Origin: a virus
Length of the DNA: 48,438 nt
Virus record (IMG/VR): IMGVR_UViG_3300044641_006397
Location: 1-48,438 of that record
Reading direction: 5' to 3' (one strand)
The notes below the pieces were generated by a model. It searched no databases. It saw nothing but the letters and a program-made list of their open reading frames with translations, and was not told where the DNA came from. The translations under genes and the position numbers were made by a program. Below are positions 15,301-48,438 of the stretch, one piece after another (positions within the stretch are counted from its first letter, which is position 1; each line of letters opens with the position of its first letter).

Positions 15301-18300
15301 TATTGATAATGAAAAAAATGGAGTAAGTAACCCATATGTCGCTTTAGGTTATTTATTTTTATCGTCTTTAAATGAAGAATTAACTATACAATCTTTGGAT
15401 AATACTAATGTCAAAACGGATATATTGACAAGTCTTAGTAAATTTTCAGCAATCCATCAGATGCCTTATCATTACATTTTGAAATATGGTGCTGTGTGGC
15501 ATAGGTATAAAACATGGATAGAATCAAACAAGACAGTTGATATTTTGGATGATGTATGGCAAAATTTTGATTATGAAAATTATTACGACCCGACACTCGG
15601 AAACATGTCCACCCAATATACTATTAAAAATTATACAGGGGGTACTCAAACATTCAAGGCCTTTGAAACTATTTTAACACCACCAGCAAATACACAATTT
15701 ATTGAAAAATATAATTTAGGATTTTACCCTAAGTTGATAAATGATTTTTATTGGTACTTTACCAAAGAAAACTTATTTAACACTTATTCTACCACGGAAT
15801 TTGAAGAAGCTTATGATAGAAATAAGTTAAGAATAGGTACAAACAGTAATTCTTCATTTTTTATGCCATACAGTGGAGACTCGAATAACTTAGACCGATC
15901 AATTGTAGTAAATGGTTATTATCAGTATTTTATTTTTGATAAAAATGCGATGGTTGACAAAAATAATAAAGTATACATTCCGGTACCATCTAATGGAGGG
16001 TCCCCTTTCAATCAAACCGTTTTAGAATGTTTCACGGGTACAAAAAAATTGAAAACAGACATTTCAAATAATCCCGCAATGTATAATGGTTCGGTTAGAG
16101 GTATGTGGGGACTTTCAAATTTTGGTTATTTTGACCCGATAGTTAAACCACAACCTGATGAAAGAATAACATACGGATTAGGACCTGGGTTATATCCTAA
16201 CATATCAACATTGATAGGAACCTTCAACCCTCAAATTTTAGATGAATTTGAAAAGGCGTTTTTAGGTTTTTGTGACCCGAATGCTGATGCCTCTGAAATT
16301 TTAGTATTAAGTGGTGAAAGAACAACACCTGATTATATTGATACTAACAAGATTAAAAACATAAAACAAAGGAGATTAAGAGATCAAATATTGAATTTGT
16401 TTGTTGTTAAAGAAACTGATTTAACAAACCCAATTATAAATCAAGAAAACATAGACGCGGTAAATATTGCACAAGTACAGCAAATTAACATGTCAAAAAA
16501 ACTCGAGGAGTTTATAAATTTTGATTGTATTCTCAAAATAGGTAACCCTTCCAATTTCAACAGAAAAGTATTCAATAGTTTTTCAACTGATGATACTCTA
16601 AAACCATTACAACCACTAACATACTCAGAATATGTTTTGGGGACTCTCCCTGGTGATGGAACAGGTGTTTCTCTTTTAGACAGCCAATCTTTAAATTCTG
16701 AATCTTGGATAGAACTACAAAAATATGTTGGATTCTCAGTAAACAATAATGTATTATATTCGGATAGTGGATCTACAATTACTGATTTCTTTATTGATAA
16801 TAATATTGAATTTTCATCTTCAAATGTTCAAACTTTATACCCGTTAATTAAGATTTATGCTTTTCAAAAATTCAAAACATTGTATGACGGTGGGTCTTGG
16901 GATATTGATAATTTCTTCGGTGACTACAATCAGTTTTTAGATGACTTGAATTCACTACAGAGTGATATGGTTCGAGAAATCTCTTCGAGATTAAACAAAA
17001 ATCTACCGAATACAAAAACAGAGATAGAAGGTGTAGGATCGAATGTAAGTGGTAATGTTACTAAACTAAGTACATACAACACATTCCAAGCTTTCAATGA
17101 TAAATGGATTGCGGGTGGAGATTTTAAAAGTAAAACATTATTTGAAGACTTCATTTTTGTAAATGCAGGAAATGGTGATATCGGCGGAACACTTCAAGTA
17201 AATGTTATACAAATTGCAAAATTATTGAAAGAAAGAAAAACAATGACAATATTGGACACCGTTGATACAATTATGACTGTAATTGACAATATGTTATTTT
17301 ACGCGATGCCAGCATACATTAATTTTTATGGAAACCAATCGCCAACACCAAACGCAATACCTAAACCTATTGATTTACCAAACTCACTGTTCGGTACATA
17401 TGCTGAAGTTAACTACATAGACTCTAAACCAAAGTTTGTTTTGTCGTATGTTGGTAAAACATCAGAACACCCTAAGTCAAATAATAATACGGTATTATAT
17501 AATGACGATAGTTATGATTTTAGAAACCCGTCTACTTGTCCTGTAAGAATACCTGTAACACCACCATACAATTTTTCACTTTCAAATAAAGTGGTTGCGT
17601 TTACCGTAGACTTTGGTATTCAAAACCAAAATATGTTCTCAAATTTAGAAGTTGGTATGGACGAAAAAAAACCAACAGGAGCAACATTTTTAGTGAGAGA
17701 CCAAATTGCAAATGGTGTAAATGGGGATTCAATCGCTCAACAAACATCCTCAATATATTCTTTATATTTAAGTTCTTCATATAGCTGTACAGTTTCATCC
17801 TTAGGTAATGTGATGATACAACCACTTATGTACTTCAATTTGAGACATGTTCCACTTTTTGCGGGATCATATCAAATATATAGTGTTGAACATAGAATCT
17901 CTCCTCAAGGATTTGAAACAGAATTCAAAGGTACTAGAATGCCAATATATGAATTACCACCACCCGATAGTATGGCAACATATATAAAACAGAATTATTT
18001 AGAGAAGTATAAAAGTATTGCACTTCAAAGACCTAACCCTATCTCAGCACCACAAGGAGCGACAACTAACCTTGATCAACCTGAGGCGGTTGGAACAACA
18101 TTGAAACCTGAAGATGAATGTCAGTTATTAGTTAATTCAAAATACTCCACCTTACCTTTTGTTGCCATCAGTAGAAGTAATTTGACCTTTAATGAATTTG
18201 CTAACCTCATCAAATCAATACCAAGTATTGATAAAAATATTGCTATTACACTTTTTGTTATTGCAATTACAAGATCTTCAAATGGTTTCGAGGATAATCT

Positions 18301-18712
18301 ATTACAACCTATTAACAATAACTTGTTTGAGTTGACGGGTAAAAACACATACAGCGACGACCCAAGACTTAATTCCTTGGTGTGTACTAGTGTTGATAAT
18401 GTAACCAATCCATTATTCTCATTTGCACAAGCCATCGAATCAATAGAAATTACTTACAAGTTGTATCAAAATTTAGGACCAATAGTTGAGGAAATGAAAC
18501 TTTTAAATACTGGTAACCAACAAGAAACTACAAAACAAGCAATCGCTCAATTTATTATTGCGACTTGGGATACGGGTTACGGTTTTACAGGAAAAAGTGC
18601 AAGTCAAATGAAGGATTTTGTTCTCACAAATGTACAGAATGAAACTATTTTACCAAGTGTATATAGTGCATATCAACAACTTGTTGAGCTTGCGGTAACT
18701 TATTTCCCATAA
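12323..18712 (+). CDS. Giant baseplate hub-like protein
   Basis: At 2129 aa this is the largest protein in the window. The first 250 residues contain a block with MLGIETINVTVNS, VSMRLIDVQGRTLFEQGE, NMPYPLFYLTLKGYYGK and a LEFIGKLTGLLAD strand, matching the N-terminal part of large hub proteins I know from T4-like phages of Bacteroidota. A long middle (about 300-1750), rich in Asn, Tyr and Asp, has no recognised domain. Residues about 1754-1880 look like the late-control/gp27-type hub fold (NMFSNLEVGMD, then GNVMIQPLMYFNLRHVPLF and SVEHRISPQGFETEFKGTRMP). A mainly helical region closes the protein. It probably replaces T4 gp27 and parts of the spike complex. No lysozyme catalytic motif was recognised. 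It starts inside the gp53-like gene. Confidence 0.65.
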   Translation: MADNFSKKPLYIETDYDNIISIDPNKIVDNNVIKDRLVDHEELVIYANLETKVVPRTKLAVGETLDIFNTSVASLKSSSNDPSLVINFLQPQGKKFFDTSYTDQLTGKGAKTAEGSNQAVRNVKGTKDTSNYEDTQMLGIETINVTVNSIGVPKVSMRLIDVQGRTLFEQGEKSLYSVFFNMPYPLFYLTLKGYYGKAIRYALNLSSFNATFDSGTGNYQISLEFIGKLTGLLADTLLDYGIVAPKMFPTNIQTTDQTNNSATPNATVNTQITQTSVGAQKLDEVYGIYESKGLIPKGFPRLTIEEFFLRAENYDLSVQESIEKGDFTVLNDVQTFNNILDELVDTVYNKVLTNYLDNDSYIIKNNQIYYPYKRNIDFDFRNQLVKDIEAEINAAVKDLNNNTSFGTGENKGSYKIGNTTFEGQSIPVSLSVDDIVKKFWYTDLTEDDYRSSLSQKLGRNNFTDQELNTYKTQIAKEFELFGKVRDLNTGLIVDDPAHSPTFFTYGEKKIGDINYIQNSFFAKIDKLKSTLESKKTSIEQNFSDLLANKLINENDGLGFAPTIRNVFAIIMAGIDTFYRLMDQTHFDAWQKRNDPKRIQTVLPPSNNFGIDSKNQVNYAGSQNTDNVVYPWPTYFVKEKTTDGVDKYVIQYLGSPPYAPTTNAFDRTVWPEVFFTEKYLEAGTLKAPVGKKYTYVNQKLLGDYASSNSLEFPFSTIPYEDPSEISFFYEWWERTYLTSHYTQLFRGNYKRPQIDKFIADLEYSNISKNINNKPFLLEKLKNNPFDLTVLEDYLKTISNNGASTKYWNYERDNFTTEYINTLISKDYGLFSMDTIDGASLTLDTSVPLVENFKNYLSDTTTNELNFFDVYGLYKTDDPNVIYNTDDTFIFFEDKKTVARLKENSSGNKLTLNYTYENNINKNFNSQVFVIPNSATPIKTSIDLINYFTVKYPDYLYSNYTDLNLLYSNYSGLVTSEQVTSMVNTPYFINALLKGIDNEKNGVSNPYVALGYLFLSSLNEELTIQSLDNTNVKTDILTSLSKFSAIHQMPYHYILKYGAVWHRYKTWIESNKTVDILDDVWQNFDYENYYDPTLGNMSTQYTIKNYTGGTQTFKAFETILTPPANTQFIEKYNLGFYPKLINDFYWYFTKENLFNTYSTTEFEEAYDRNKLRIGTNSNSSFFMPYSGDSNNLDRSIVVNGYYQYFIFDKNAMVDKNNKVYIPVPSNGGSPFNQTVLECFTGTKKLKTDISNNPAMYNGSVRGMWGLSNFGYFDPIVKPQPDERITYGLGPGLYPNISTLIGTFNPQILDEFEKAFLGFCDPNADASEILVLSGERTTPDYIDTNKIKNIKQRRLRDQILNLFVVKETDLTNPIINQENIDAVNIAQVQQINMSKKLEEFINFDCILKIGNPSNFNRKVFNSFSTDDTLKPLQPLTYSEYVLGTLPGDGTGVSLLDSQSLNSESWIELQKYVGFSVNNNVLYSDSGSTITDFFIDNNIEFSSSNVQTLYPLIKIYAFQKFKTLYDGGSWDIDNFFGDYNQFLDDLNSLQSDMVREISSRLNKNLPNTKTEIEGVGSNVSGNVTKLSTYNTFQAFNDKWIAGGDFKSKTLFEDFIFVNAGNGDIGGTLQVNVIQIAKLLKERKTMTILDTVDTIMTVIDNMLFYAMPAYINFYGNQSPTPNAIPKPIDLPNSLFGTYAEVNYIDSKPKFVLSYVGKTSEHPKSNNNTVLYNDDSYDFRNPSTCPVRIPVTPPYNFSLSNKVVAFTVDFGIQNQNMFSNLEVGMDEKKPTGATFLVRDQIANGVNGDSIAQQTSSIYSLYLSSSYSCTVSSLGNVMIQPLMYFNLRHVPLFAGSYQIYSVEHRISPQGFETEFKGTRMPIYELPPPDSMATYIKQNYLEKYKSIALQRPNPISAPQGATTNLDQPEAVGTTLKPEDECQLLVNSKYSTLPFVAISRSNLTFNEFANLIKSIPSIDKNIAITLFVIAITRSSNGFEDNLLQPINNNLFELTGKNTYSDDPRLNSLVCTSVDNVTNPLFSFAQAIESIEITYKLYQNLGPIVEEMKLLNTGNQQETTKQAIAQFIIATWDTGYGFTGKSASQMKDFVLTNVQNETILPSVYSAYQQLVELAVTYFP

Positions 18713-18715
18713 ACG

Positions 18716-18726
18716 ATATATTTATA
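18716..18726 (+). promoter_or_regulatory. TATTTAT element before 74-aa gene
   Basis: ATATATTTATA lies just past the hub stop; TATTTAT (18719-18725) ends 12 nt before the ATG at 18738. Candidate late promoter, by recurrence and spacing. Confidence 0.4.
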
Positions 18727-18737
18727 TAGAAATTATT

Positions 18738-18962
18738 ATGAACATGAAAGCACTTTTAGACGACTATCTAAAAAAAGATACTAGAGTTACCCAAAGAGAT
18801 AGTGGTAATGGTTATCAAGAAGTTTGTGATTTAGATACAGGTGATTGTTATACGATAAGAATGAAAGATGGTCTTATTGAAAGAGTTGACAACACTATGA
18901 AAACTAATAGAACATTAAAAGTCGAAACACCGACAGGTGTTAAGACATTACTTAACGGATAA
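18738..18962 (+). CDS. Small 74-aa protein of unknown function
   Basis: Not recognised. The 74 residues open with a short amphipathic helix (MKALLDDYLKKD), followed by beta-rich sequence with a DSGNGYQEVCDLDTGDCYTIR segment carrying two cysteines eight residues apart, and end with TPTGVKTLL. It has its own TATTTAT element and is followed 10 nt later by the next start, so the two genes are probably co-expressed as the last late unit before the replication block. A small virion or assembly protein is a guess from position only. Confidence 0.65.
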   Translation: MNMKALLDDYLKKDTRVTQRDSGNGYQEVCDLDTGDCYTIRMKDGLIERVDNTMKTNRTLKVETPTGVKTLLNG

Positions 18963-18972
18963 AAATAAGGTA

Positions 18973-19644
18973 ATGAATATTGATAAAAAAATCATCGAAG
19001 AACTAAAAAGGTTTAATCAAATTAATACCTACATACTAAAAGAACAAGGAGATGCTCCATTACCTGAGGAAGAACCTACTCCTGAGGCCGATGCCACCGC
19101 AACGACTCCGGCAGCACCTGATGCCGCAGCGGCACCTGAAGCTGCAACAGGTACAGATGCAGCAGCACCTGAAGAAGTGGCAGAACCTATTGATATACAA
19201 TCGGACCCTGATGTAGAAGAAGTGGATGCCGAAGGGACTGGTACAGAAACCGAAGATACAGAAGAAATTGATATTACCGATTTAGTAACTAACCAACAGG
19301 AAATCAAAACAAAACAAGAGGAATTTATGACTAACATGTTCTCAAAGTTAGATGATTTAGAAAGTAAGTTGAATACGATGGATCAAATCATGGATAAAAT
19401 AAATAACCTTGAAAATAAATTCGATAAGTATAGAGAAAAAACACCAGAGGAAAAACTTATGTTAAGATCGTTAGACTCATATCCTTATAATCAAAAACTT
19501 ACTGATTTTTTCCAAGACAAAGAAGTTGAAATGGATAAAACGGGAAAAAATGAATATGTTTTAACTTCAGACGATGTTGAAAACTTTTCACCAGGGGAGA
19601 TCAAAAAAACTTTCAATATCTACGATAACGAAGACCAAAACTAA
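18973..19644 (+). CDS. Ala/Pro/Glu-rich protein with coiled coil, unknown function
   Basis: Not recognised. The ATG at 18973 is preferred over a GTG at 18937 that would overlap the upstream gene by 26 nt. The 223-aa product begins with a charged helix (IDKKIIEELKRFNQ), then has a low-complexity Ala/Pro/Glu/Thr segment at about residues 30-95 rich in APEE and ATATT stretches. Next comes a heptad-like coiled coil at about 100-155 (DDLESKLNTMDQIMDKINNLE), and finally a folded tail with SYPYNQKLTDFF. A flexible acidic linker plus an oligomerising coil suggests a virion decoration, scaffold or assembly protein. A strong terminator follows. Confidence 0.7.
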   Translation: MNIDKKIIEELKRFNQINTYILKEQGDAPLPEEEPTPEADATATTPAAPDAAAAPEAATGTDAAAPEEVAEPIDIQSDPDVEEVDAEGTGTETEDTEEIDITDLVTNQQEIKTKQEEFMTNMFSKLDDLESKLNTMDQIMDKINNLENKFDKYREKTPEEKLMLRSLDSYPYNQKLTDFFQDKEVEMDKTGKNEYVLTSDDVENFSPGEIKKTFNIYDNEDQN

Positions 19645-19664
19645 AAAAAAATTAAACATAATAT

Positions 19665-19690
19665 AAAGGGACTTTACGGTCCCTTTTTTA
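19665..19690 (+). terminator. Terminator closing the late unit before the replication block
   Basis: The stem AAAGGGAC (19665-19672) with GTCCCTTT (19679-19686) has a TTTACG loop and a T tail. It lies immediately before the host-type promoter, so it insulates the replication genes from late read-through. Confidence 0.88.
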
Positions 19691-19721
19691 TTTGACAAAC
19701 TTGAATATTCACTTATATTTG
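19691..19721 (+). promoter_or_regulatory. Bacteroidota-type housekeeping promoter
   Basis: TTTG at 19691-19694, a spacer of exactly 19 nt, and TATATTTG at 19714-19721 match the Bacteroidota primary sigma factor consensus (-33 TTTG and -7 TAnnTTTG). Transcription would start near 19728, giving a leader of about 29 nt before the ATG at 19757. It lies directly after a terminator and before the replication genes, so early or middle expression by host RNA polymerase is the natural reading. Confidence 0.8.
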
Positions 19722-19756
19722 TTGTAGATAAAAGAGTAATAATTAAAAATTTATTT

Positions 19757-20611
19757 ATGGCAAATTCAGTATTAGATTCAGTACTTGCACAGTACGAAAA
19801 GAACTCAACAACATCGAGTTCACAACGATCAAACATTTCACAAGAAGACCGTTTGAAAAAGTATTTTTCAGCAATTTTACAAAAGAATGAAAAATCTGCA
19901 TCACGAAGAATTCGTATTTTACCTACTAAAGATGGATCGTCTCCGTTTGTTGAAGTATGGTATCACGAGATCCAAGTAAACGGACAATGGGTTAAGTTGT
20001 ATGACCCTGATAAAAATGACAACGAACGATCACCATTGACCGAAGTATATAACGAACTTATCTCTACAGGTAAAAAAGAAGACAAAGAATTGGCTTCACA
20101 ATATAGATCTCGATTGTTTTATATCGTTAAAGTAGTTGACCGTGATAATGAACAAGATGGTGTTAAATTTTGGAGATTTAAACACAACTACAAACAAGAA
20201 GGTGTGTTAGATAAAATTCTCCCTATTTGGAAGGCTAAAGGTGATGTTACAGACGCAGAAAAAGGTCGTGACTTAATCATCGAACTAACAAAGGCTAAAA
20301 CACCACAGGGTAAAGAATACACAGTTATTCAAACAATCATGTATGATGACCCACAACCACTTCACGAAGATAAAGAAATTATGGACGGATGGGTTCAGGA
20401 TGAACTTACATGGAACGATGTTTACTCTAAAAAACCTGTAGAGTATTTAGAAGCCGTAGCGGTTGGAGAAACACCAATTTGGTCTTCTGAACTTAAAAAA
20501 TATGTATATGGTGAAGAAGCTGAAATTTCATTAGGTGGAAACAAACAAGAAACACCAACACCTGCGGACCCACAGGCCAATGAAGAACCGGCAGAAGATT
20601 TACCGTTCTAA
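19757..20611 (+). CDS. 32: Single-stranded DNA-binding protein (gp32-like)
   Basis: A 284-aa replication and recombination protein that coats ssDNA and coordinates helicase, polymerase and recombinase. The N-terminus is polar and basic (the cooperativity region in gp32). A core with RRIRILPTKDGSSPFVEVWYHEI and then DGVKFWRFKHNYKQEG matches the gp32 OB fold; the FWRFKHNY block is typical. The end is acidic and closes with EDLPF, the partner-binding tail type also seen in bacterial SSB. Unusually, the protein has no cysteine, so the T4 zinc module (three Cys and one His) is absent. It is first in the replication block, behind a host-type promoter, with its own terminator downstream, which fits high expression. 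Confidence 0.88.
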   Translation: MANSVLDSVLAQYEKNSTTSSSQRSNISQEDRLKKYFSAILQKNEKSASRRIRILPTKDGSSPFVEVWYHEIQVNGQWVKLYDPDKNDNERSPLTEVYNELISTGKKEDKELASQYRSRLFYIVKVVDRDNEQDGVKFWRFKHNYKQEGVLDKILPIWKAKGDVTDAEKGRDLIIELTKAKTPQGKEYTVIQTIMYDDPQPLHEDKEIMDGWVQDELTWNDVYSKKPVEYLEAVAVGETPIWSSELKKYVYGEEAEISLGGNKQETPTPADPQANEEPAEDLPF

Positions 20612-28299: not shown

Positions 28300-28761
28300 A
28301 TGGCAAACGGAATAACATATGGTATTAATTTTCCTTTAAGACAGAGTTTAAAAGGTCAATACCTATCTCTATCGGAAACACCAGATGAAGAAATCAGAAC
28401 TGATTTGGTCCATCTGTTACTAACAAGGAAAGGATCAAGATACTATCTACCAAATTTTGGTACAAGATTGTATGAATATATTTTTGAACCTTTAGATGGG
28501 GATACCTTTTCAACACTGAGAAGTGAAATAGAAGAATCAATATCTACATTTATTCCTAATCTTACTATTCAAAATATAAGTATAGAACCATATGTTAATT
28601 CTGAACCATCTTTAGGTGAGTTAGTTGTTCCTGAACAAGACATTCCTGTTTATGCTATTCCTGGAGCAAATACTGAAGAGTACACAGCAAAAATAAAAAT
28701 AGAATATGTTGACGAAAGCAGTGCTTTCGGAACAAGACAATTCGTTATCATCAATTTATAA
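28300..28761 (+). CDS. 25: Baseplate wedge protein gp25-like
   Basis: A 153-aa baseplate wedge subunit of the gp25 family, universal in contractile tails and related injection systems. Its conserved middle is visible: a DLVHLLLTRKGSRYYLPNFG segment (the family's LLTxxGxR-x-P-x-FG motif), then LYEYIFEPLD, and a beta strand ending TIQNISIEP. gp25 contacts the sheath and starts its polymerisation. Size is close to T4 gp25 (132 aa). It sits 3 nt before the gp6-like gene, the usual wedge partner. The name lysozyme-like sometimes given to this family does not imply enzyme activity. Confidence 0.92.
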   Translation: MANGITYGINFPLRQSLKGQYLSLSETPDEEIRTDLVHLLLTRKGSRYYLPNFGTRLYEYIFEPLDGDTFSTLRSEIEESISTFIPNLTIQNISIEPYVNSEPSLGELVVPEQDIPVYAIPGANTEEYTAKIKIEYVDESSAFGTRQFVIINL

Positions 28762-28764
28762 ACT

Positions 28765-30606
28765 ATGGCAAATAGAAGAATTGCATATACTGACAGAGAT
28801 TTTGAAGCGTTAAGACAAGACCTCATAGATTATACCCAACAGTATTATCCAGAATTAATACAAAATTTTAATGATGCGTCTGTATTTTCAGTACTGATGG
28901 ATTTGAATGCTGCGATTGGTGACAATTTGCATTTTCATATAGATAGGAGTATACAAGAAACCGTTTTACAGTTTGCACAACAAAGATCTTCTATATTTAA
29001 CATTGCTAGAACCTATGGACTAAAAGTACCTGGATTTAGACCTTCTGTTGCTTTGGTTGATATTTCGATAACTATACCTGCTTTAGGTGACTCTGAAGAT
29101 GTAAGATATTTAGGTATATTAAGAGCCGGAGCCCAATTCAACGGTGGAGGAACGACATTTGAAACCGTATATGACATTGATTTCTCAACTCAATTTAACA
29201 GAGAAGGGTTTGTGAACAGAACAAAAATACCACAATTCAGTGATGATAATTCTGCACCATCAAGCTACATAATTACAAAACGAGAAATTGTTGTCAATGG
29301 TAGTACCCAAGTATTCAAAAAGGTAATTACCCCTGCAGAAGTAATACCTTTCTTTAGTTTTTTCTTACCTGAAAAAAATGTCTTAGGTGTGACATCGATA
29401 ATACAAAAAGACGGTACTGATTACCAATCAACACCATCCTTCACTGAATTCCAAACTTCACCAAACAGATGGTATGAGGTTGATTCATTAGTAGAAAATA
29501 CAGTATTTATCGAGGACCCAACTAAACCTGTTGATGACGCTGGCGTAAAAGTAGGAAGGTATTTAAAAACAGATAATCGATTCATTACTGAATACACCCC
29601 CGAGGGATTTTTAAGAATTCAATTTGGTAATGGGACTGTAACACCTGAAGAACAACTAAATCAATTTACTAAAACAGGTGTTCCACTAAAAATACAAAAT
29701 TATCAAAATAACATAGGTTTAGGTTTAACAGTAAGACCAAATACTACTTTGTTTGTTCAATATAGGACAGGTGGTGGATTGGCTAGTAATGTTGGTGTTG
29801 GTGCGATCAATCAAGTTGCATTAGTTGATTTTGCAGTAAACGGACCCTCAGCGGTTGTCAATAACAATACCATACAATCGATTAGAGTTAATAATGTGAC
29901 TGCGGCAATCGGAGGAGCAAACCAACCTTCAGTTAACGAGGTAAGAAATATGGTTACATATAACTTTGCGGCACAAAAAAGAGCGGTAACAATAAATGAC
30001 TACAAGTCTCTAATTGATACAATGCCAGGACAATACGGTGCCCCAGCTAAAGTGTCGATATCAGAATTCAACAATAAAATTTTGGTGAAGATCCTTTCTT
30101 TCGACACACAAGGTGCTCTAACACAAACAGTCTCGAATAATCTTAAAACAAATTTGGCAACTTATCTATCGAAGTATAGAATGATTAACGATTATATTTC
30201 AATTGAAGTCGCTAAAGTTATAGATTTGGAATTTGAGTTCTTTGTTGTTTTAACCGCTGCAGGATCACAAAGTCAAGTCATCACACAAATAATTGATAAT
30301 GTAACAACTTACATGGCACCATCTACAAGGGAGTTAGGTGAAAATGTTAATGTTTCAGAAATTAGACAAATCGTTCAAGGAATAGAAGGAGTTAATACAT
30401 TATCTGAAATAAGAGTATATAATAGAGTTGGCGGTCAATACTCATCATCTGAAACATCACAAAGATATGTAGATGTTGCAACTAAACAAATTGAACTTAT
30501 TGATGACACTATTTTTGCAGAGCCCGATCAAATTTACCAAGTAAGATTCCCAAATAAAGACATAAAAGTAAGGGTTAAAAATATAACAACAGTAGATTAT
30601 AGTTAA
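28765..30606 (+). CDS. 6: Baseplate wedge protein gp6-like (baseplate J family)
   Basis: A 613-aa wedge protein. The start, RIAYTDRDFEALRQDLIDY, then NDASVFSVLMDLNAAIGDNLHFHIDR and QFAQQRSSIFNIARTYGLKVPG, is the conserved N-terminal block of T4 gp6 and the wider baseplate J family. Later it has EVRNMVTYNFAAQKRAVTINDYKSLI, the second conserved block. T4 gp6 is 660 aa, so the protein is full length. In T4 it forms the ring around the hub, together with gp25 and gp53. It follows gp25 as in most myoviruses. Confidence 0.93.
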   Translation: MANRRIAYTDRDFEALRQDLIDYTQQYYPELIQNFNDASVFSVLMDLNAAIGDNLHFHIDRSIQETVLQFAQQRSSIFNIARTYGLKVPGFRPSVALVDISITIPALGDSEDVRYLGILRAGAQFNGGGTTFETVYDIDFSTQFNREGFVNRTKIPQFSDDNSAPSSYIITKREIVVNGSTQVFKKVITPAEVIPFFSFFLPEKNVLGVTSIIQKDGTDYQSTPSFTEFQTSPNRWYEVDSLVENTVFIEDPTKPVDDAGVKVGRYLKTDNRFITEYTPEGFLRIQFGNGTVTPEEQLNQFTKTGVPLKIQNYQNNIGLGLTVRPNTTLFVQYRTGGGLASNVGVGAINQVALVDFAVNGPSAVVNNNTIQSIRVNNVTAAIGGANQPSVNEVRNMVTYNFAAQKRAVTINDYKSLIDTMPGQYGAPAKVSISEFNNKILVKILSFDTQGALTQTVSNNLKTNLATYLSKYRMINDYISIEVAKVIDLEFEFFVVLTAAGSQSQVITQIIDNVTTYMAPSTRELGENVNVSEIRQIVQGIEGVNTLSEIRVYNRVGGQYSSSETSQRYVDVATKQIELIDDTIFAEPDQIYQVRFPNKDIKVRVKNITTVDYS

Positions 30607-39768: not shown

Positions 39769-40677
39769 ATGGCATTAGGAGCATACGGTACTATCAGACC
39801 CGCAGATGTATCACCATCTGATGTTGAAATATTATTACATTACACGCCGTCGCGTGATGTAACATCTAACTTTGTATTGAAAAAATTAGATGCAACAACA
39901 ATTTTAACACCATATTACCACAACAATCAGACTGGTGGAAACAATAATATTGAAATATTGGGAGGGTTATATAATCTTAGATTACCTGCCACTGAGTTTA
40001 ATGCTGTTGGTATTTACACACTTTACATTAGACCCGCCGAAATTAGAACAAGAATAACAGATTGTGGTGTGTTATCGGCACTCCCTAATGTTAAAGGTAT
40101 TATTATAGACATCAATCAGGTCCCACAACAATTTAGAAACAAATTTGTGAACCAAGGTTTAGTTGGATTCAGAATTGAATATTTAAACAATGACGGAACA
40201 AAAATACCTAATTTTTATAGAATAGTAACATCTTCTTTTTATTGTGAGCCGGTTGTTTCAGACCAGACAAACACTACTCAAAAGTCTATAAGATATCGTT
40301 ATGTTGAGGGTGCGAGTGATTTATTATTTTGTACACTTTCACCTAGTTCATCACCAACTAACAAACCGAATGCTACACCATTTATTGGTCAACCAAATCA
40401 AAATATTATTGTTACGAATACTTTTTTCAATCCACTTAGTTTGGATGTGCAAATATCTAATTATGATATTGATACATTGGCAATTGCGTTATACGGTAAT
40501 CAAACTAAATCTATTGAAGATGGTATCTACACTCTTTATGATAGTGTTGGTAACATTTATAAACAATACAACCTATTTGAGGTTAGAGATAACTTTAATG
40601 AACTTCTTTATGAGGTTAGACAAGATAGGGGAACTAATATCGACTTTAGTAAAAACTTTACAAATATTATTAGTTAA
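39769..40677 (+). CDS. Structural protein of unknown function, 302 aa
   Basis: Not recognised. The start MALGAYGTIRPADVSPSDVEIL is followed by a beta-rich body. A GLVGFRIEYLNNDGTKIPNFYRI strand pair and a RYRYVEGASDLLFC block look like a compact jelly-roll or Ig-type fold, but this is weak. It overlaps the next gene by 1 nt (TAATG), hence is tied to the gpI-like protein and probably helps connect baseplate and fibres. Confidence 0.72.
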   Translation: MALGAYGTIRPADVSPSDVEILLHYTPSRDVTSNFVLKKLDATTILTPYYHNNQTGGNNNIEILGGLYNLRLPATEFNAVGIYTLYIRPAEIRTRITDCGVLSALPNVKGIIIDINQVPQQFRNKFVNQGLVGFRIEYLNNDGTKIPNFYRIVTSSFYCEPVVSDQTNTTQKSIRYRYVEGASDLLFCTLSPSSSPTNKPNATPFIGQPNQNIIVTNTFFNPLSLDVQISNYDIDTLAIALYGNQTKSIEDGIYTLYDSVGNIYKQYNLFEVRDNFNELLYEVRQDRGTNIDFSKNFTNIIS

Positions 40678-43600
40678 TGGCAGTTACAAAATATAAATGT
40701 CCAGCACCACCTGCAAACGGATCAGGTACCTTTTCCAATGAATTAGTTGGTTTACAATTAGTCTCGGGTGGTGGTTTAACGCAAGGAAATTTTCAGTTTA
40801 CCACTGCAATATATGAAAAAATTGACAGGACATTTGATACTGGTCTTTTTTCTGACCCATACACTCTTGAAAACCTAAATATTGAATCAGTCGAACAAGC
40901 AAAAGAAATAGTTCGCAAAAATTTTAAGGTATATCCAAATTTTGATTTAGCTCAAGTCACTAACTATACTCTTTATGGTTCATTACAGAAAAGACTTTCT
41001 TCATCTATAACCAAGATAATTAACTTTTTTCCGGCCGGAATCCAAATAGATTTTCAGAATTACAGTTTAAACACAGGTTATACTGCGTTCAATATTATAT
41101 ATGATCCTATAGGTGATGAAACATCTTTTGATGTGGATGTTCAATTTTTCAAAAATCCATTCGCAATTGATTATAGCGTTAATGCCGCACAGAACATACA
41201 AGTTCTACCATACAATGTAAGCAAATATAGAGATTTAAAAAAATTCTATGAAAGTTATTCATTATATACTACAACTTTCAATGATGAATACCCAATCATT
41301 GATTTAGTAGCGACGACAACACTCACTGCTGGTACAATTCCGATAGTAGTAAAAGGTCAACCATTTACGGGTTCTCAAATCACAGATACTATTATTATCA
41401 AACCAAACAATTTAGTAACTGAACAAGTATTTAAAAACGATTTTGATGAAATTGAGCAATACCTTCTTAATAGAAATACTTTTCCTAAGTACACCGCTAA
41501 ATTTCAATATCCTGATTATGATAGTAATGGTAATTACACTTTATTTACTAAACCTGTAACATGGAAATTAGATGGTGCTTGGAATCTTGACATTGAAACG
41601 ACTAATTTTGACACATACCTAACAACGATTCAGGAAATTGCTGAATTAATCGACCAATTCAAGACAAACCTGTTAAGTAGATTTTTAACATCTGACTCAC
41701 TTAAAGAATTTGACACACCAGACCAAAAGTTAGAAAAAGTTTTACAAATTTATGGTAGAAGTTTTGATGAGACAAAGACACTAATAGATGCTTTGGCAAA
41801 CATGAATTCGGTAAATTATATCACTAAAAATGACATACCCGATCAATTATTGTCGTATATAGTTGAAACACTAGGTTGGAAAACAAATATATCACCAATC
41901 ACAACTGATGGACTTAACGATACGATATATAACACGACAAATAATGTAATCTATCCTGGACAATCGAAAATACAAACACCAGAACAAGTAAACATACAGT
42001 ATTATAAAAATTTAATACTTAATTCTGCTTATTTGTATAAAACTAAAGGTACGAGAAAGTCAATTGAGTATATTATGAAGATGGTTGGTGTGCCCGACCA
42101 ACTTATTGAGTTTAATGAATATGTTTATCTTGCGGATCAAAAAATATCTGTTTCTGATTTTGAAACACAATTTGCTCAAATTTCAGGTGGAACCAAGTTG
42201 GATAAGATTACATCCTTAAATTCTAGTATTCAATACTCAATACAAAGCATCAATTTTACAGGGTTTGTTGCTAATTCAGTTATTACTACGGTTAACACCG
42301 GACTTGGAGACTACCCGATATCTTTAGAAACAGGATATCCTGAAAGTGCGGTTGAAACCGAAGATTATTTTTTTCAAAAAGGTGCCGGTTGGTTTGAAAC
42401 GACTCCCGAACACACATCACCCGAAGTTATTAATTTTTCAACATCAGAAATTAATCCGCAAATTGCGGTATTTTCTTCTGTACTTACACCATTCACATAT
42501 GGGCAAGAATATTTGGATCGTTACGAAAAGTTTCCATTTTTGGACTTAGGATATCGATTAACAAGAACGGTTGACAATACAAAATCATGGGTGGATACTC
42601 AGGTTGGTTTAAGAAAAAACACACAAAATTATTCGGAAACATATTACACTGTACCAAATGAAGATTTGGCAATCAATTCTAAAAACATGGAATTGTACCT
42701 TAATATGGGCCAAGGAATAACATATGACATTTGGGATATGTCTTCTAAATACGGATACCCAATTGCGAATACAGGGTTAACATCTCCATATGCAACACAA
42801 GGTGGAATTGATTGGACGGTAATTAATCCTAAACCGAATCAAAAAACCTTTTTAGAATTTGCACAAACATTCTATAATAACATGATAAATGTTAGAAATA
42901 GACAATGGATTTTTGACGGTAAAACCGGAGGTTACCCAACATTACAATATATTTTTTGGAAGTATTTGGAAACTACACAAAATACAAATTTCCCATTCAA
43001 TGATTTTACATATCAAAAAATGGTAGATTATACTCTGAATTTAGGTGACTATTGGGTTAGACTTGTTGAACAATTTGTACCCGCCACTACTTTATGGAAT
43101 ACGGGTCAAAAATTTGACAACTCAATATTTCATAGACAAAAAGTGTCATGGAAAAGACAAAGAGGATGTACTTTTGTCGGTACTGGTTCTTTTACCCCTC
43201 AAGATGAACCACCTGTACAATCTGTATATGAAGGAGGAAGTGGTGCTTACGACTGTAATGAACAAACACTGACAGCAGCATTAACTATGTTTGATCCTTT
43301 TGAAATTCTTAGTATCGAAACAAATGATGCGATTTTAAATCAAGGAATTGACTTATCCCAATGTAATAATAATACGGTTATATCTACTTGGTATGTTGAA
43401 GTAGTCTTAACAAATTTACTAACTGGTAATGAACAAATTTTATTGTTTGAACAGTTTTGGATTGGAGATGGACCTGAAGCACTTAATCAACAAACAGGTG
43501 ACCCATTATATTATGACGGGGTGTTACTAGCCATTACAAACAGTTTACAACCTTTAGAATCTGTTGGTTTAGGTTATAGTTTTGAAGGTGGAAACCTAAC

Positions 43601-43691
43601 TATTTTCAATACAACATGTCTTGATGAATTTACAAATAGCTCATTAACCATAAATGTTGTCTTAGATGTGACAGTTGAATGTATTAATTAA
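40677..43691 (+). CDS. Baseplate-to-fibre protein with P2 gpI-like region
   Basis: A 1004-aa protein. Residues about 442-485 read YYKNLILNSAYLYKTKGTRK, then EYIMKMVGVPDQLIEFNEYV. This pattern (N-x-x-x-LYK-x-KGT-x-x-SIE-x-x-x-x-x-x-GIP) is typical of the phage P2 gpI tail-protein family, which links wedges to tail fibres. Before it lies a long helical stretch (TIQEIAELIDQFKTNLLSRF) and after it several beta regions with a LVEQFVPATTLW motif; the C-terminal 170 residues look like a separate domain. It starts within the TAATG of the previous stop and precedes the SprB-repeat adhesin, matching a role as fibre adaptor. Confidence 0.72.
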   Translation: MAVTKYKCPAPPANGSGTFSNELVGLQLVSGGGLTQGNFQFTTAIYEKIDRTFDTGLFSDPYTLENLNIESVEQAKEIVRKNFKVYPNFDLAQVTNYTLYGSLQKRLSSSITKIINFFPAGIQIDFQNYSLNTGYTAFNIIYDPIGDETSFDVDVQFFKNPFAIDYSVNAAQNIQVLPYNVSKYRDLKKFYESYSLYTTTFNDEYPIIDLVATTTLTAGTIPIVVKGQPFTGSQITDTIIIKPNNLVTEQVFKNDFDEIEQYLLNRNTFPKYTAKFQYPDYDSNGNYTLFTKPVTWKLDGAWNLDIETTNFDTYLTTIQEIAELIDQFKTNLLSRFLTSDSLKEFDTPDQKLEKVLQIYGRSFDETKTLIDALANMNSVNYITKNDIPDQLLSYIVETLGWKTNISPITTDGLNDTIYNTTNNVIYPGQSKIQTPEQVNIQYYKNLILNSAYLYKTKGTRKSIEYIMKMVGVPDQLIEFNEYVYLADQKISVSDFETQFAQISGGTKLDKITSLNSSIQYSIQSINFTGFVANSVITTVNTGLGDYPISLETGYPESAVETEDYFFQKGAGWFETTPEHTSPEVINFSTSEINPQIAVFSSVLTPFTYGQEYLDRYEKFPFLDLGYRLTRTVDNTKSWVDTQVGLRKNTQNYSETYYTVPNEDLAINSKNMELYLNMGQGITYDIWDMSSKYGYPIANTGLTSPYATQGGIDWTVINPKPNQKTFLEFAQTFYNNMINVRNRQWIFDGKTGGYPTLQYIFWKYLETTQNTNFPFNDFTYQKMVDYTLNLGDYWVRLVEQFVPATTLWNTGQKFDNSIFHRQKVSWKRQRGCTFVGTGSFTPQDEPPVQSVYEGGSGAYDCNEQTLTAALTMFDPFEILSIETNDAILNQGIDLSQCNNNTVISTWYVEVVLTNLLTGNEQILLFEQFWIGDGPEALNQQTGDPLYYDGVLLAITNSLQPLESVGLGYSFEGGNLTIFNTTCLDEFTNSSLTINVVLDVTVECIN

Positions 43692-43703: not shown

Positions 43704-46376
43704 ATGGCTTGTATTAGTGGATATACAAATGGAATTTATACTTATGTTGACTGTTGTGGATTGACAAGGGTCGGTGCATCATCAGGTGAAACTGTATGTT
43801 TGGACCAAAGTTACTCTGGAAGTGCCGTAAACATAGTGTATGATACTGGTAGTACTTGTACACAGGCTTGTAGTGGAACATCTGAATTATCTTATTTTTT
43901 CACGGTAACTGGTACATGTGGAATTGCAAATGGATCGGTTACTATATCCCCTAACGGAGGTTACCCACCATACACAATTGACCCAATTTTTCCTGTGGGT
44001 CATGGATTGTCCGCACAAACAGGAACAACTTCAATAACTTTTACGGGGCTTACTGATGAAACTTATGTTTTTAGACTCAACGACTCGTTAGGTGATGTTA
44101 ATTCGGAATTGTTTATAAATGTAAGTGTCGGAAACTGTTTTAGTGCAACTACAACTTTTGTTGAAGGTACTACCTGCGGTTTAGAAAACGGTTTAATAAC
44201 TGTGAGTGCATCATCAACGACACCACCATATAATATTCTTTTATATAAGGATGAAGTTCTAAATCAAATACAACAAACAAATTCAGTACCATATATATTT
44301 CCTGAATTAGGTGAGGGTATTTACTACGCATTACTTGTTGATTCAAGTAATGTTACCGCTAAAACAGAAAATGTTGTCATAAGTGCTAGTACACAGTTAG
44401 ATTTTGGTTTATGGAAGGTAGATACTTCACAGTGTGCAACTGACAAAGGAAAAATTTCTGTCACAGGACAAACTGGTGTATGTCCATACACCTATTTATG
44501 GTCTGACGGACATACAGGTCAAACTATAACAGGACTAACGGTAGGTGAATATTCAGTAACCGTAACAGACAGCCAAGGGTGTGAGTTAACAAAAAGTGTT
44601 TTTGTGGATATAGCATCACCATTGGGGGTTGGTTTGGTCACAGGAACTAACCCAACATGTTTTAGTAACAATGGAATTATAGATATTACAATAACAGGTG
44701 GAAGTGTTCCATACTATTACTCGGCATCGTCTGGTAATATAGGAGTTACACTATCTAATGAATTATCAATTACGGGGTTAACCGCAGGGGATTACCAAAT
44801 TATTATAAAAGATGCTAATCTTTGTACATTAGATTTTATAACAGAACTTAACTCAGTTAATGGATTCAGAAATGTAAGTAATACTATAACAAACTCAACC
44901 TGCTCATTTGATAATGGGTTAATACAGACAAGTATTGTTGGGTTGTATGGTTTCTACTCTTACATTCTTTCGGGTCAAAATACGAATCAGGTGTTTACTA
45001 AGTTTACACAGGACCAAAATGTGACATTTGACGGTTTGGAAACCGATACATACCTATTAACAATATCAGGAAACTCAAGTAGTTGTGTTTATACCGAAAC
45101 TTTGGAAGTTACATCCGAAAGTAAGTTTACGGTTACAGCAACAACAACACCATCGTCATGTGGATCACAAAGCGGATCTATCTCTGTAAATGTGAGTACT
45201 GGTTACACAGAACCGATTGATTATGTCTTAAGTAATGGTAACACATTACAAAATGTAAACTTTTCTTCATACACATTCAATTTCTTAACACCTGGAAGTT
45301 ATACACTACAAGTGACTGATGCTGATAACTGTACGGTAAGTTTAGATTTAACCGTACCATTAAGTGGTAATCTAACATCTACATTAACTAAAACCGACTG
45401 TACTAATAATAATGACGGTGCTGCGACCGTAACAATTTTTGATGGTGCACCACCATTTACATTTGATTGGTCAGATAATGTTCCTTCAGGGAGTACAGGG
45501 AGTACTGTGACTGGATTGTCGGGTGGAAGTTATTCGGTGACTGTTGCAGATAATAGTGGGTGTACTGAATTTTGGACATTCGACATAGTATGTAATCAAT
45601 ATTTAGTTACAGGTAGAACAAGATATAATGTCGTTAATCAAAAATTTGACACACTTACAGGAACCAAGAGATCTATTCAAAAAATGATAAATGAAGGATT
45701 TTTTGACCTAATAAATTTATCAGGGTACTCCAATTGTATATTAAATAAAGTAGAGTTAGAAGCATTAGTAACCATTAATGGGTCAACATCGGGACAAACA
45801 TTTACATATGCCGATGATTATTCTTGGCAACACGCAATCGAAGCTATTTTAGACATAATACCCGAGGTAAACGCATATACTATAAGTGTACTCAATAATA
45901 CATTGGAAATAACATGTGATTGTAGTTCTATCAGTAGTAACTACTTCAAAATTGAATTAGAAATCACATATGACATCAAATGTTCGCAATTAACAACACC
46001 AACTCCAACACCAACACCAACTCCAACACCGACACCAACTTATGTGCCGACATCAACACCTACTGCGACTCCAACACCAACCCCAACATCGTCAGGTATT
46101 GTTTGGTTTACAAACCTTGATATTTACAATATTGCTGATGAAGATGTTTGTGAGGATACAATTTGTAACAGAAGTCTCTATTCTACGGGTGCAACGATTA
46201 ATGTTGGTGATGTGATATATACGGATCCATTATTAACAACTAAATATGTTGGGACTAATTTTGGACCTACGGATGGATTTGCAAGAATTTATGTTTCAAG
46301 TGCTTGTCCGATAACTACTCGAAATGTGTTACAAGTTAACGATTTAGGTGTCGTATTATCTAAATATGTCTGTTAA
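43704..46376 (+). CDS. SprB-repeat tail adhesin
   Basis: An 890-aa probable fibre or adhesin. Residues about 65-630 contain seven SprB-type repeats of roughly 75-85 aa with the pattern C-x-x-x-NG-x-I-x-V-x-GG-x-PPY, then GLTAGDY, then V-x-D-x-x-GC. The clearest copies are near 255-320 (YLWSDGHTGQTITGL, then YSVTVTDSQGC) and 540-625 (TFDWSDN, then YSVTVADNSGC). SprB repeats are best known from flavobacterial gliding adhesins. A conserved domain follows at about 630-760 (NQYLVTGRTRYNVVNQKF), then a TP-repeat linker at about 765-795, and a C-terminal domain. No signal peptide is present, as expected for a virion protein. It probably contacts the host surface; the receptor is unknown. Confidence 0.8.
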   Translation: MACISGYTNGIYTYVDCCGLTRVGASSGETVCLDQSYSGSAVNIVYDTGSTCTQACSGTSELSYFFTVTGTCGIANGSVTISPNGGYPPYTIDPIFPVGHGLSAQTGTTSITFTGLTDETYVFRLNDSLGDVNSELFINVSVGNCFSATTTFVEGTTCGLENGLITVSASSTTPPYNILLYKDEVLNQIQQTNSVPYIFPELGEGIYYALLVDSSNVTAKTENVVISASTQLDFGLWKVDTSQCATDKGKISVTGQTGVCPYTYLWSDGHTGQTITGLTVGEYSVTVTDSQGCELTKSVFVDIASPLGVGLVTGTNPTCFSNNGIIDITITGGSVPYYYSASSGNIGVTLSNELSITGLTAGDYQIIIKDANLCTLDFITELNSVNGFRNVSNTITNSTCSFDNGLIQTSIVGLYGFYSYILSGQNTNQVFTKFTQDQNVTFDGLETDTYLLTISGNSSSCVYTETLEVTSESKFTVTATTTPSSCGSQSGSISVNVSTGYTEPIDYVLSNGNTLQNVNFSSYTFNFLTPGSYTLQVTDADNCTVSLDLTVPLSGNLTSTLTKTDCTNNNDGAATVTIFDGAPPFTFDWSDNVPSGSTGSTVTGLSGGSYSVTVADNSGCTEFWTFDIVCNQYLVTGRTRYNVVNQKFDTLTGTKRSIQKMINEGFFDLINLSGYSNCILNKVELEALVTINGSTSGQTFTYADDYSWQHAIEAILDIIPEVNAYTISVLNNTLEITCDCSSISSNYFKIELEITYDIKCSQLTTPTPTPTPTPTPTPTYVPTSTPTATPTPTPTSSGIVWFTNLDIYNIADEDVCEDTICNRSLYSTGATINVGDVIYTDPLLTTKYVGTNFGPTDGFARIYVSSACPITTRNVLQVNDLGVVLSKYVC
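45997..46092 (+). repeat. Thr-Pro repeat linker (CCAACA-type hexamers)
   Basis: About 95 nt of near-identical ACACCA/ACTCCA units encode alternating Thr-Pro with a short YVPTS interruption. It joins the SprB and C-terminal parts of the adhesin. A similar run begins at 48423 in the last gene. Confidence 0.85.
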
Positions 46377-46378
46377 TA

Positions 46379-46657
46379 ATGGCTAGTGGTTTGGTAATAT
46401 CGGGTGAAACGGGGGGTAATCCACCATACCAATTTTTTATATGTGATGAAAATGGTAATAATTGCCAATATATTGGTACAACAGGAGGAACCTTTACCCT
46501 TAATAGTTTTTTTCAAACTGCAGAAACCATAATGGTCAAACTTGTTGACAGTAATAATTTTGAAGTTTTCCAATTAATAAGTTGCCCAATAGGGTATTTA
46601 TTACAAGAGAACGGTTATTACATATTACAAGAAAACGGTTTTAAAATTATACTATAG
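46379..46657 (+). CDS. Small SprB-like single-domain protein
   Basis: A 92-aa protein that looks like one isolated SprB-type module: ISGETGGNPPYQFFICDENGN, then IMVKLVDSNNFEVF, then a terminal cysteine region. It ends with two copies of a short LLQENGYY/ILQENGFK unit. It resembles the last gene of the window (48203) in length, order of motifs and the VKLxDSN block, so the two are likely paralogues. It starts 2 nt after the adhesin stop and its stop abuts the next ATG. It may be a minor fibre subunit or cap; the role is unknown. Confidence 0.72.
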   Translation: MASGLVISGETGGNPPYQFFICDENGNNCQYIGTTGGTFTLNSFFQTAETIMVKLVDSNNFEVFQLISCPIGYLLQENGYYILQENGFKIIL

Positions 46658-48193
46658 ATGTCACAAGATTTAAGAATATCTCAACTACCATTTGTAAGTT
46701 CAGGGCAACCACAATCTATTATGGTGCTTGTAGACTACAGCACTAATGCTTCAGGAATAACAAGTGCAATATATTTTTCTTCTATTACTGCGAGTATTAG
46801 CGGCGGTACAGGTACTTCCGGATCTTCAGGAAGTAGCGGTAGCTCGGGTTCTTCAGGAAGTAGCGGCACCTCTGGTACCTCAGGTAGCGGTAGCTCGGGT
46901 TCTTCAGGGTCGAGTGGTTCTTCAGGAAGTAGCGGTACCTCTGGTACCTCAGGTAGTGGGAGCTCGGGCTCAAGTGGAACTAGCGGAATCTCAGGTTCTT
47001 CAGGGTCTTCAGGAACATATGGATCGAGTGGAAGTAGCGGCTCTTCAGGATCTAGCGGAACAAGCGGTTCTTCAGGAAGTAGTGGAAGCTCAGGGTCAAG
47101 TGGAACTTCAGGAAGTAGTGGAAGCTCGGGTTCTTCAGGGACTAGCGGAATTAGTCCTGATGGTTTATATCTACCTTTATCAGGTGGGACTGTAACAGGT
47201 AATACTTATTTTGGTATTACATCAGGTATTACTTTGGACCAAGTTAATAATAGATTGGGTATAAATACAAACAATCCACAACATACAGTTGAAGCGTTTG
47301 GGACAAAATCTAAAATCACTTATGAAAATACAGCAGGTGGTGTATTTCAAATATCAGGTGATACTTTCTTACCAAGAATTAATGTGGCAGGGGCCCCATC
47401 TGTAACCAAACCATTATTTAGTTTATCTGCAGGTGTTAGAACTTGGGACGATGTAACATATCCTGGATATGGTAAAGTTGGCGACACATTCATATACGCC
47501 TCCAACGAAGCAAACGGGCTTAATATTATCAATCGTCAAACATCAGGTTCTACAATAGAGGATTACATTAGATTTTATGCAGGTCAAGACGCTAATGGAA
47601 CAATACCTGATATTCATATCCAAGGTACTGGTACTACAAGAGGATATGTTGGATTTGGTATTACTAACCCAACAGAAATGGTTGACATATCTGGTAATAC
47701 AAAAGTTGGAGGACGAATAACTGCACCAACAATTTCGGCAACTACAATATCAGCAACGACATTTAATCTTTCGGGTTCACAAATAGAAACTGCTTGGGCA
47801 TCATATACACCAGTTTGGACAGCAAGTGTTACTAACCCTGTAATTGGTAATGGAACTATAGAAGGATACTACAAAGTAATCGGTAAAACATGTTTTGTTA
47901 GGGGTAATATTGTGATGGGTAGCTCAACAACATTTGGTTCAGGTGAATGGTATGTATCGATGCCGTTTACTGCCGCTAATGCGGATGCTATACTATTGAC
48001 AGCCACGTTATTAGATAATGGTTCCGCTTGGTATAATGCTACTATGGTTGGGGCAAGAGCTGGATTTAACACTAAAGCTCCGATACAATATCAAACTACA
48101 GGTGGAACCGCTAACGATGTTAATTCAATCCAACCGTTTACTTGGGCAAGTACTGATAGATTCATTTGGAACGGTAGTTATGAGATACAATAA
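46658..48193 (+). CDS. Collagen-like tail fibre protein
   Basis: A 511-aa tail fibre. After an N-terminal attachment region (SQDLRISQLPFVSSG, about 50 aa), residues about 50-165 are GSS/GTS triplets with Gly nearly every third residue, a collagen-like rod broken by a few GSG shifts. Next comes LYLPLSGGTVTG, a motif that often marks the start of folded fibre domains, then a beta-rich shaft with GITLDQVNNRLGINTNNP and GYVGFGITNPTEMVDISGN. The C-terminal 140 residues (WASYTPVWTASVTNPVIGNG, then YKVIGKTCFVRGNI) are of a type common in phage receptor-binding tips. It probably forms a trimer that binds the host. No chaperone or intramolecular protease is seen within the window. Confidence 0.85.
   Translation: MSQDLRISQLPFVSSGQPQSIMVLVDYSTNASGITSAIYFSSITASISGGTGTSGSSGSSGSSGSSGSSGTSGTSGSGSSGSSGSSGSSGSSGTSGTSGSGSSGSSGTSGISGSSGSSGTYGSSGSSGSSGSSGTSGSSGSSGSSGSSGTSGSSGSSGSSGTSGISPDGLYLPLSGGTVTGNTYFGITSGITLDQVNNRLGINTNNPQHTVEAFGTKSKITYENTAGGVFQISGDTFLPRINVAGAPSVTKPLFSLSAGVRTWDDVTYPGYGKVGDTFIYASNEANGLNIINRQTSGSTIEDYIRFYAGQDANGTIPDIHIQGTGTTRGYVGFGITNPTEMVDISGNTKVGGRITAPTISATTISATTFNLSGSQIETAWASYTPVWTASVTNPVIGNGTIEGYYKVIGKTCFVRGNIVMGSSTTFGSGEWYVSMPFTAANADAILLTATLLDNGSAWYNATMVGARAGFNTKAPIQYQTTGGTANDVNSIQPFTWASTDRFIWNGSYEIQ
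46809..47155 (+). repeat. Gly-Ser/Thr coding repeats with a 69-bp duplication
   Basis: The rod-coding DNA is a mosaic of 9-nt-like units. A 49-nt stretch beginning at 46851 recurs at 46920 with only three mismatches, all at third codon positions, defining a 69-bp (23-codon) in-frame tandem duplication. Such repeats change length by recombination or slippage. Confidence 0.85.
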
Positions 48194-48202
48194 TAAAAAT
48201 AG

Positions 48203-48438
48203 ATGATAATACAAATAACTGGTGTAACAAGTGGAACAAGTCCATATGATGTATTTTTATGTAATACTGGATATACGTCTTGCTTTTTAATATCAGGTAG
48301 TTGTCAAATACCACCTACAGTTGTGGTGGATACTGATTACTTTTTTCCTAATTATGATTCTATCGGTGTTAAGTTAATAGATAGTAATGGATGTATATAT
48401 ACCGAAAATAAAGTATGTATTCCTACACCTACGCCTAC
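48203..48438 (+). CDS. Small SprB-like protein with Thr-Pro tail, 3' end cut by window
   Basis: Starts at ATG 48203, 9 nt after the fibre stop, and stays open to the window edge (78 codons). The protein starts MIIQITGVTSGTSPYDVFLCN and continues with a VKLIDSNGCIYT block, then enters a Thr-Pro run (CIPTPTPT). It is a relative of the 92-aa protein at 46379, and its TP tail is like the linker in the SprB adhesin, so a larger adhesin of the same architecture may continue downstream. Total length cannot be known here. Confidence 0.75.
   Translation, partial: MIIQITGVTSGTSPYDVFLCNTGYTSCFLISGSCQIPPTVVVDTDYFFPNYDSIGVKLIDSNGCIYTENKVCIPTPTP

Follow-up and report, generated by a model that had tools for sequence, protein, structure and literature searches.

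SprB of Flavobacterium johnsoniae is described as a mobile adhesin of 669 kDa that is secreted by the T9SS (PMC9127263), and a single SprB repeat has been described in a fucoidanase (PMC7698502). Tandem repeats near phage tail genes are likewise on record: the BACON repeats of crAss-like phages are reported to lie in tandem beside tail genes and to form position-specific clades in one lineage (PMC6949934), while an accessory adhesin role has been proposed for fibritins with Ig-like domains (PMC3797505). Arrays of Ig-like domains are known on phages, and their roles have mostly been guessed. The open-licence PMC literature yielded no published study of the array family described here and no text in which "SprB" stands together with "uncultured Caudovirales phage"; SprB repeats and phages are both mentioned there in a paper on polymorphic toxins.

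The window, that is, the whole stretch of DNA analyzed, comprises 48,438 bases of one strand of the metagenomic IMG/VR virus record IMGVR_UViG_3300044641_006397. Its genes include those for a sheath, a tube, a hub, single-strand DNA binding, a helicase, ribonucleotide reductase, and two baseplate wedge proteins (gp25-like and gp6-like; 28300..30606, + strand), which bears out the tail setting that an earlier note on this DNA had assigned to the locus; the source virus is a large contractile-tailed phage, probably of Bacteroidota. An ORF of 890 residues with an ATG start (43704..46376, + strand) encodes a protein of 94.8 kDa carrying seven SprB units. We favor, with moderate confidence, the reading that this protein is a conserved tail component, namely, an arm of fixed length made of seven sandwiches, with a C-terminal domain, also present in its neighbor, as its attachment in the baseplate region.

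SprB units of the array protein

Pfam SprB (PF13573) matches the array protein at 81.2 bits (gathering score 28; E 4e-23) over six stretches; on the window DNA, six single units match, three of which exceed the cut-off alone, so Pfam by itself shows six units, not seven. All seven were found with a held-out unit profile, trained on relatives after removal of the window protein, of L008 (a copy of it), and of L018 (the relative nearest to it), at E values from 1e-10 to 4e-22 (residues 62–155, 148–231, 234–307, 309–388, 390–475, 476–556, and 554–633). The same profile found 0 domains at E 0.01 in 200 shuffled copies of the protein. The seven SprB-type repeats named in the earlier note were thus recovered by HMM search. 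As an outside check, Pfam SprB matches 35 of 35 family representatives at E ≤ 0.01, with two to five stretches per protein in ten relatives scanned singly.

All parts of the gene lie on the + strand. The protein begins with an N-terminal piece (residues 1–61; 43704..43886), followed by the units assigned by the unit profile: R1 (residues 62–147; 43887..44144), R2 (148–233; 44145..44402), R3 (234–308; 44403..44627), which is the best-conserved unit among distant relatives, R4 (309–389; 44628..44870), R5 (390–475; 44871..45128), R6 (476–555; 45129..45368), and R7 (556–630; 45369..45593). Behind them come a conserved C-terminal domain of approximately 130 residues, mixed alpha/beta in the model (631–760; 45594..45983), a Thr/Pro-rich linker (764–795; 45993..46088), and an end module of approximately 95 residues (796–890; 46089..46373), none of which figures in the earlier note. 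Among the 78 viral loci described below, the N-terminal piece and the end module occur in L007, L008, and L018 only. By eye, both had seemed common to other fiber proteins, an idea that was dropped after iterated searches returned near relatives only.

Units inside one protein share a mean identity of 25% with each other, and the divergence of the repeats that the earlier note had remarked on is therefore real. The cysteine pairs at residues 244/293 (R3), 319/374 (R4), and 400/461 (R5) are kept in 48 of the 48 complete family members, and that of R6 in 43 of 48. Conserved pairs of this kind are unusual in a protein that is synthesized in the cytoplasm.

A viral family with a fixed number of units

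Viral contigs searched with the window protein gave 11 loci, and searched with an alignment gave 78 loci (from the best 80 of 82 confirmed viral matches), those 11 included. The 78 loci represent 50 distinct proteins; L071 and L075, truncated at the contig ends, were excluded from the alignments, giving 48 complete proteins, and 35 representatives at ≤95% identity were kept for the structure model. Seven units were found in 50 of the 50 distinct proteins (with a profile trained on 48 of them) and the end domain in 49 of 50 (with a profile built from 48 of them). The core is 692–725 residues long in the 48 complete proteins, most commonly 706, with pair identity down to 32%. An extra search, started from the SprB array found in a 642-kb phage, gave six loci (L172–L177). 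Four of these (L173–L176) possess seven units, the end domain, and an ORF of approximately 1,000 residues and are further members of the family, which thus extends to at least 82 viral contigs. In L172, the 9 kb examined contain four units and neither the end domain nor the ~1000-aa ORF; the 642-kb record itself has 13 or 14 units depending on the threshold, and both the end domain and the ~1000-aa ORF are missing from the stretch examined.

Units at the same position in different proteins share a mean identity of 52%, in contrast to 25% for units at different positions, although single values overlap (as low as 19% for the same position and as high as 42% for different positions inside one protein). 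Among the 20 nearest units of each window unit, the same position is represented by 12 for R6, 15 for R1, and 18–20 for the other five. The difference between 52% and 25% marks the array as old and fixed, and, together with the unit tree discussed below, agrees with the earlier view that no recent duplication took place; judged from the unit sequences, the seven-unit array was complete before the phage family spread. The variation lies at the ends. An N-terminal extension of more than 20 residues is found in 7 of 48 members, a C-terminal one in 15, and neither in 30, and the extra modules that some members carry at either end are variable and mostly set on TP-rich linkers.

Predicted fold and structural relatives

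The core model built from the 35 representatives has a mean pLDDT of 81.7 and a pTM of 0.37; an earlier model from four sequences (pLDDT 53.7) was set aside. With a pTM of 0.37, the model does not predict how the domains are arranged, while the single sandwiches are credible, and it is credible on this model that the SprB units are Ig/FnIII-like beta-sandwiches. The earlier note had proposed structure prediction of single repeats as a check; the core model gives an Ig-like fold, with GhpA, Ig, and FnIII chains as its top PDB matches. In Foldseek, the best PDB matches are segments of GhpA, the grappling hook of Aureispira (9fly, 9flw, and 9flp), then Ig-containing and other chains, and no solved structure named SprB is among the PDB matches listed. 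The GhpA TM-scores are low (0.13–0.28), as for a flexible chain. In a second structural comparison, which mainly covers model residues 85–498, 9flp was aligned over 500 residues with an rmsd of 46.6 and a Z of 10.8, a value that FnIII chains reached as well.

Searched by sequence profile, the PDB gave the neck whisker protein gp24 as the best match (E 1.6e-4) and a phage decoration protein as the next (E 0.002), and the Hoc-like head decoration PHROG matches 21 of the 35 representatives and gives no match to the window protein itself. SprB units also occur on whiskers. Three Pseudotevenvirus whiskers (L165, L166, and L167, from Buttiauxella, Citrobacter, and Cronobacter phages), found when the relative L017 and not the window protein served as the query, carry Pfam SprB and Ig domains behind Fibritin_C, so SprB-type units are already present on structural proteins of named phages. 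These matches are what would be expected of a neck whisker or head decoration protein, fibritin-like or Hoc-like, whose Ig-like domains bind surfaces weakly and in a general manner. Such an identity is unlikely for the array protein, as Fibritin_C is absent from it (Pfam, E up to 1), its gene lies in the baseplate and fiber block, its end domain is common to a neighbor in the baseplate block, and any Ig-like array would give Hoc and whisker matches. A tail arm at the baseplate is preferred for the same reasons of location.

The upstream ORF and the shared end domain

Directly upstream of the array gene lies an ORF of 1,004 residues within the baseplate block (40677..43691, + strand), whose C-terminal domain (43335..43682, + strand) is related to the C-terminal domain of the array protein; the window thus holds the end domain in both. 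When the profile of the array's C-terminal domain was compared with the C-terminus of the ~1000-aa ORF, hhalign gave 93.5% (E 2.2e-7); three control stretches taken from elsewhere in this ORF gave 0.2%. An iterated search recovered the end domain from the array protein at 77 of the 78 viral loci (L075 is cut off before the domain) and from an upstream ORF at 78 of 78: in the ~1000-aa ORF in 74, in a split ORF in L021, and in a separate ORF of 166 residues in L061, L062, and L065. In bacterial SprB loci, the phage end domain was found in 0 of 80 (the best 80 of 120) at E 0.001.

The divergent locus L177 extends this picture. It possesses an ORF of 1,156 residues (at 1409) that matches positions 20–501 of the ~1000-aa profile (E 6.5e-108), adjoins an ORF of the 302-aa family, and carries two SprB units at 898–1039 with no match to the end domain. 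The end domain is therefore movable, to judge from the comparison of these loci, being encoded as a separate 166-aa ORF in L061, L062, and L065, while SprB units sit inside the ~1000-aa-type ORF of L177. The shared end domain and L177, both absent from the earlier note, are the strongest pointers to the baseplate among the sequence evidence, and we infer that the end domain may dock the array protein.

The ~1000-aa family itself drew few named matches. Its profile was made from 20 of the 21 listed upstream ORFs. In Pfam, only DUF5365 and DUF5601 were obtained, both below the cut-off, with no named baseplate family; in PHROGs, only phrog_15511 and phrog_15998 were obtained, each with one of the 20 members. 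NCBIfam gave no match, nor did a sequence search of the PDB (E up to 1), and a tblastn search with the ~1000-aa and 302-aa ORFs against 50,697 phage records was likewise without a match. The only named link of the family, a weak one, leads to Flavobacterium phage immuto, whose baseplate block contains a matching ORF of 1,265 residues (E 5.7e-5 in hmmsearch; 76% in hhalign).

Neighborhood of the array gene

The array gene lies inside a conserved tail block. The ~1000-aa family is present in 78 of 78 viral loci and directly precedes the array gene in 74; in L021, the ORF is split in two (431 and 500 residues), and in L061, L062, and L065, the 166-aa ORF lies between it and the array gene. Ahead of it, most of the 50 representatives have ORFs of about 570, 280, 360, and 302 residues. 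Gene by gene, the comparison covered 21 of the 50 loci (19 for the downstream genes): for the array protein and each of five upstream genes, 210 of 210 pairs were comparable, with mean identities of 46%–79%, the array protein being the least conserved of the six (46% mean identity; coverage 0.81). For the next downstream ORF, mostly a small one, 144 of 171 pairs were comparable, and for the first downstream gene of at least 150 residues 46 of 171, with a mean coverage of 0.29. The boundary with the fiber genes is therefore placed just behind the small ORF, and the array's position on the conserved side is more in keeping with a structural arm than with a receptor-binding tip.

In the window, this small ORF (92 residues; 46379..46657, + strand) has one small domain that weakly resembles the SprB unit, and its family is present in 72 of the 78 viral loci. 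The profile was made from 22 of the 24 listed small ORFs, with the window's ORF replacing that of L007, and its similarity to the SprB unit is weak (hhalign 81%; E 1.2e-5). The family of this single domain of approximately 70 residues occurs a second time in the window, at the start of a TP-linked protein (48203–48436), and is possibly a common N-terminal module of fiber proteins.

Between the two small domains of the window, a protein of 511 residues (46658–48193) has a collagen-like GSSGTSG stretch and tail fiber PHROG matches. In L007, several ORFs behind the fiber genes (15681–19865) are glycosyltransferase-like by eye only. ORFs further downstream with one or two SprB-type units were seen in L007 (21768–22670), L072 (19196–20251), and L016 (17643–18767).

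Bacterial relatives, origin, and host

A scan of bacterial genomes gave 80 loci (the best 80 of 120 confirmed matches), of which 77 have titles naming Bacteroidota taxa, two Chloroflexi, and one Verrucomicrobia (counted by eye). Bacterial SprB ORFs (n = 99) have 1–51 units with a median of nine, and exactly seven in 11 of the 99, many being cut by the locus ends. The unit tree was made from 130 units over 86 columns, taking 10 of the 48 phage proteins and 60 of 1,192 near-full host units (60 ORFs, each represented by its top-scoring unit). R1, R2, R3, R4, and R7 each form one group, R5 needs two changes, and R6 three; support is low, as 7 of the 127 inner branches are starred while 74 are open. 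The phage R3 units stand among host units with weak support.

The earlier note had suggested that the protein may have been acquired from a host adhesin. A recent acquisition is not supported by the family: all 50 distinct phage proteins have seven units in the same order, and the array predates the family. In the phylogeny of repeats against the host that the note proposed, position-specific phage groups were obtained, and the junction of phage and host units was weakly supported. With the junction weakly supported, an old transfer in either direction between phage and host may have taken place. That the array is the receptor-binding adhesin itself, derived from a host SprB-type adhesin and binding the same glycans, would suit the Bacteroidota titles of its bacterial relatives and the place of R3 in the tree. 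It is nevertheless quite improbable, because unit number, order, and length are invariant, no unit is clearly more variable than the others in 111 close pairs (0.81–0.87), the changeable genes sit downstream of the array, and the protein has no T9SS sorting domain over the cut-off. On sequence grounds, the array resembles a structural arm kept by the family rather than an adhesin of recent host origin; polysaccharide binding by it is possible.

T9SS sorting domains were found in seven of seven such bacterial genomes, compared with 2 of 14 control genomes, and none was found in the window protein (NCBIfam, E ≤ 0.1; Pfam, E ≤ 1). PF18962 (Por_Secre_tail) appears in 11 of 35 relatives at E ≤ 0.01; among 10 relatives scanned singly, 5 have such matches, which are situated within the repeats and below the cut-off. 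A further reading, very improbable, holds that the array protein is not in the virion and is made during infection to act on the cell surface, for example, in blocking re-infection. The cysteine pairs of R3, R4, and R5, kept in 48 of 48 members, would suit an oxidizing place; synteny in the tail block and the shared end domain argue against this reading, and so may the N-terminus, where a crude scan of hydropathy showed no strongly hydrophobic stretch (at most 0.71 for 15 residues within the first 50).

As for the host, Bacteroidota genes typically lack Shine-Dalgarno sites. Of 29 window genes, not one is preceded by a Shine-Dalgarno-like site, and the leaders are A-rich; at a random rate of 8.7%, approximately 2.5 sites would be expected, so zero is not beyond chance. 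Controls gave 4 of 49 genes in Flavobacterium phage immuto and five of eight in Buttiauxella phage GuL6. Among the nearest named sheath relatives are those from a Microcystis phage (40% identity) and, behind it, immuto (34%). A promoter pattern of Bacteroidota type occurs twice in the window versus 0.62 in shuffles, which is too few to use, and the ~1000-aa profile gave no match in any of 395 genomes of the phylum to which a Fluviicola genome belongs, a search that had no positive control and is uninformative on the host. From these sequence features, a Bacteroidota host is likely.

Proposed role of the array protein

In the proposed mechanism of the tail arm, the C-terminal domain, common to the ~1000-aa neighbor, would dock the array protein at the baseplate, and the seven SprB sandwiches would form a stiff rod. 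An Ig-like domain is about 4 nm long, which would give a rod of roughly 25–30 nm. Such an arm could hold the virion, or variable tips, near the cell surface, with the variable end modules as possible tips.

Several findings count against a baseplate arm: the Hoc-like PHROG matches in 21 of 35 representatives, the 30 of 48 members that carry no added module of more than 20 residues, the lack of a named baseplate family match for the upstream ORF, and the position of the array protein as the least conserved of the six block proteins, with the fiber boundary one gene further on. How the arm arose can be suggested only tentatively: the lineage may have built it by combining seven adhesin-type sandwiches with a duplicate of the docking domain present in its baseplate-block protein. 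If this is true, the arm and the baseplate protein would dock through the same kind of domain. The fixed number of units, the variable ends, and the domain shared with a neighbor make "ruler or arm" testable against "receptor binder".

Comparison with known systems

F. johnsoniae SprB and the window protein have the name of a repeat family in common; the former is a T9SS-secreted protein of 669 kDa, while the latter is of 94.8 kDa and without a sorting domain. The array family illustrates why phage proteins receive a gliding adhesin label. GhpA is a giant bacterial surface protein that, unlike in the structural comparison, gave no sequence match to the array at E up to 1. Pseudotevenvirus whiskers of the RB43 type have three to four units by the unit profile together with Fibritin_C, whereas the window family has seven units.

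The BACON arrays of crAss-like phages are a close precedent, being likewise a tandem domain of Bacteroidota type near tail genes, as described in PMC6949934. They differ in having another domain in other phages, with the BACON family absent from the Pfam matches of the window protein and the 35 representatives, whereas the window family combines seven fixed units with an end domain shared with a neighbor. The best viral structural match is UniProt A0A6J5LD72 ("SprB repeat", uncultured Caudovirales phage), a protein of 714 residues that has the size of the commonest form of the array family and matches the core over its full length (31% identity; E 3.5e-58); compared with it, the window protein adds the N-terminal piece and the TP-linked end module.
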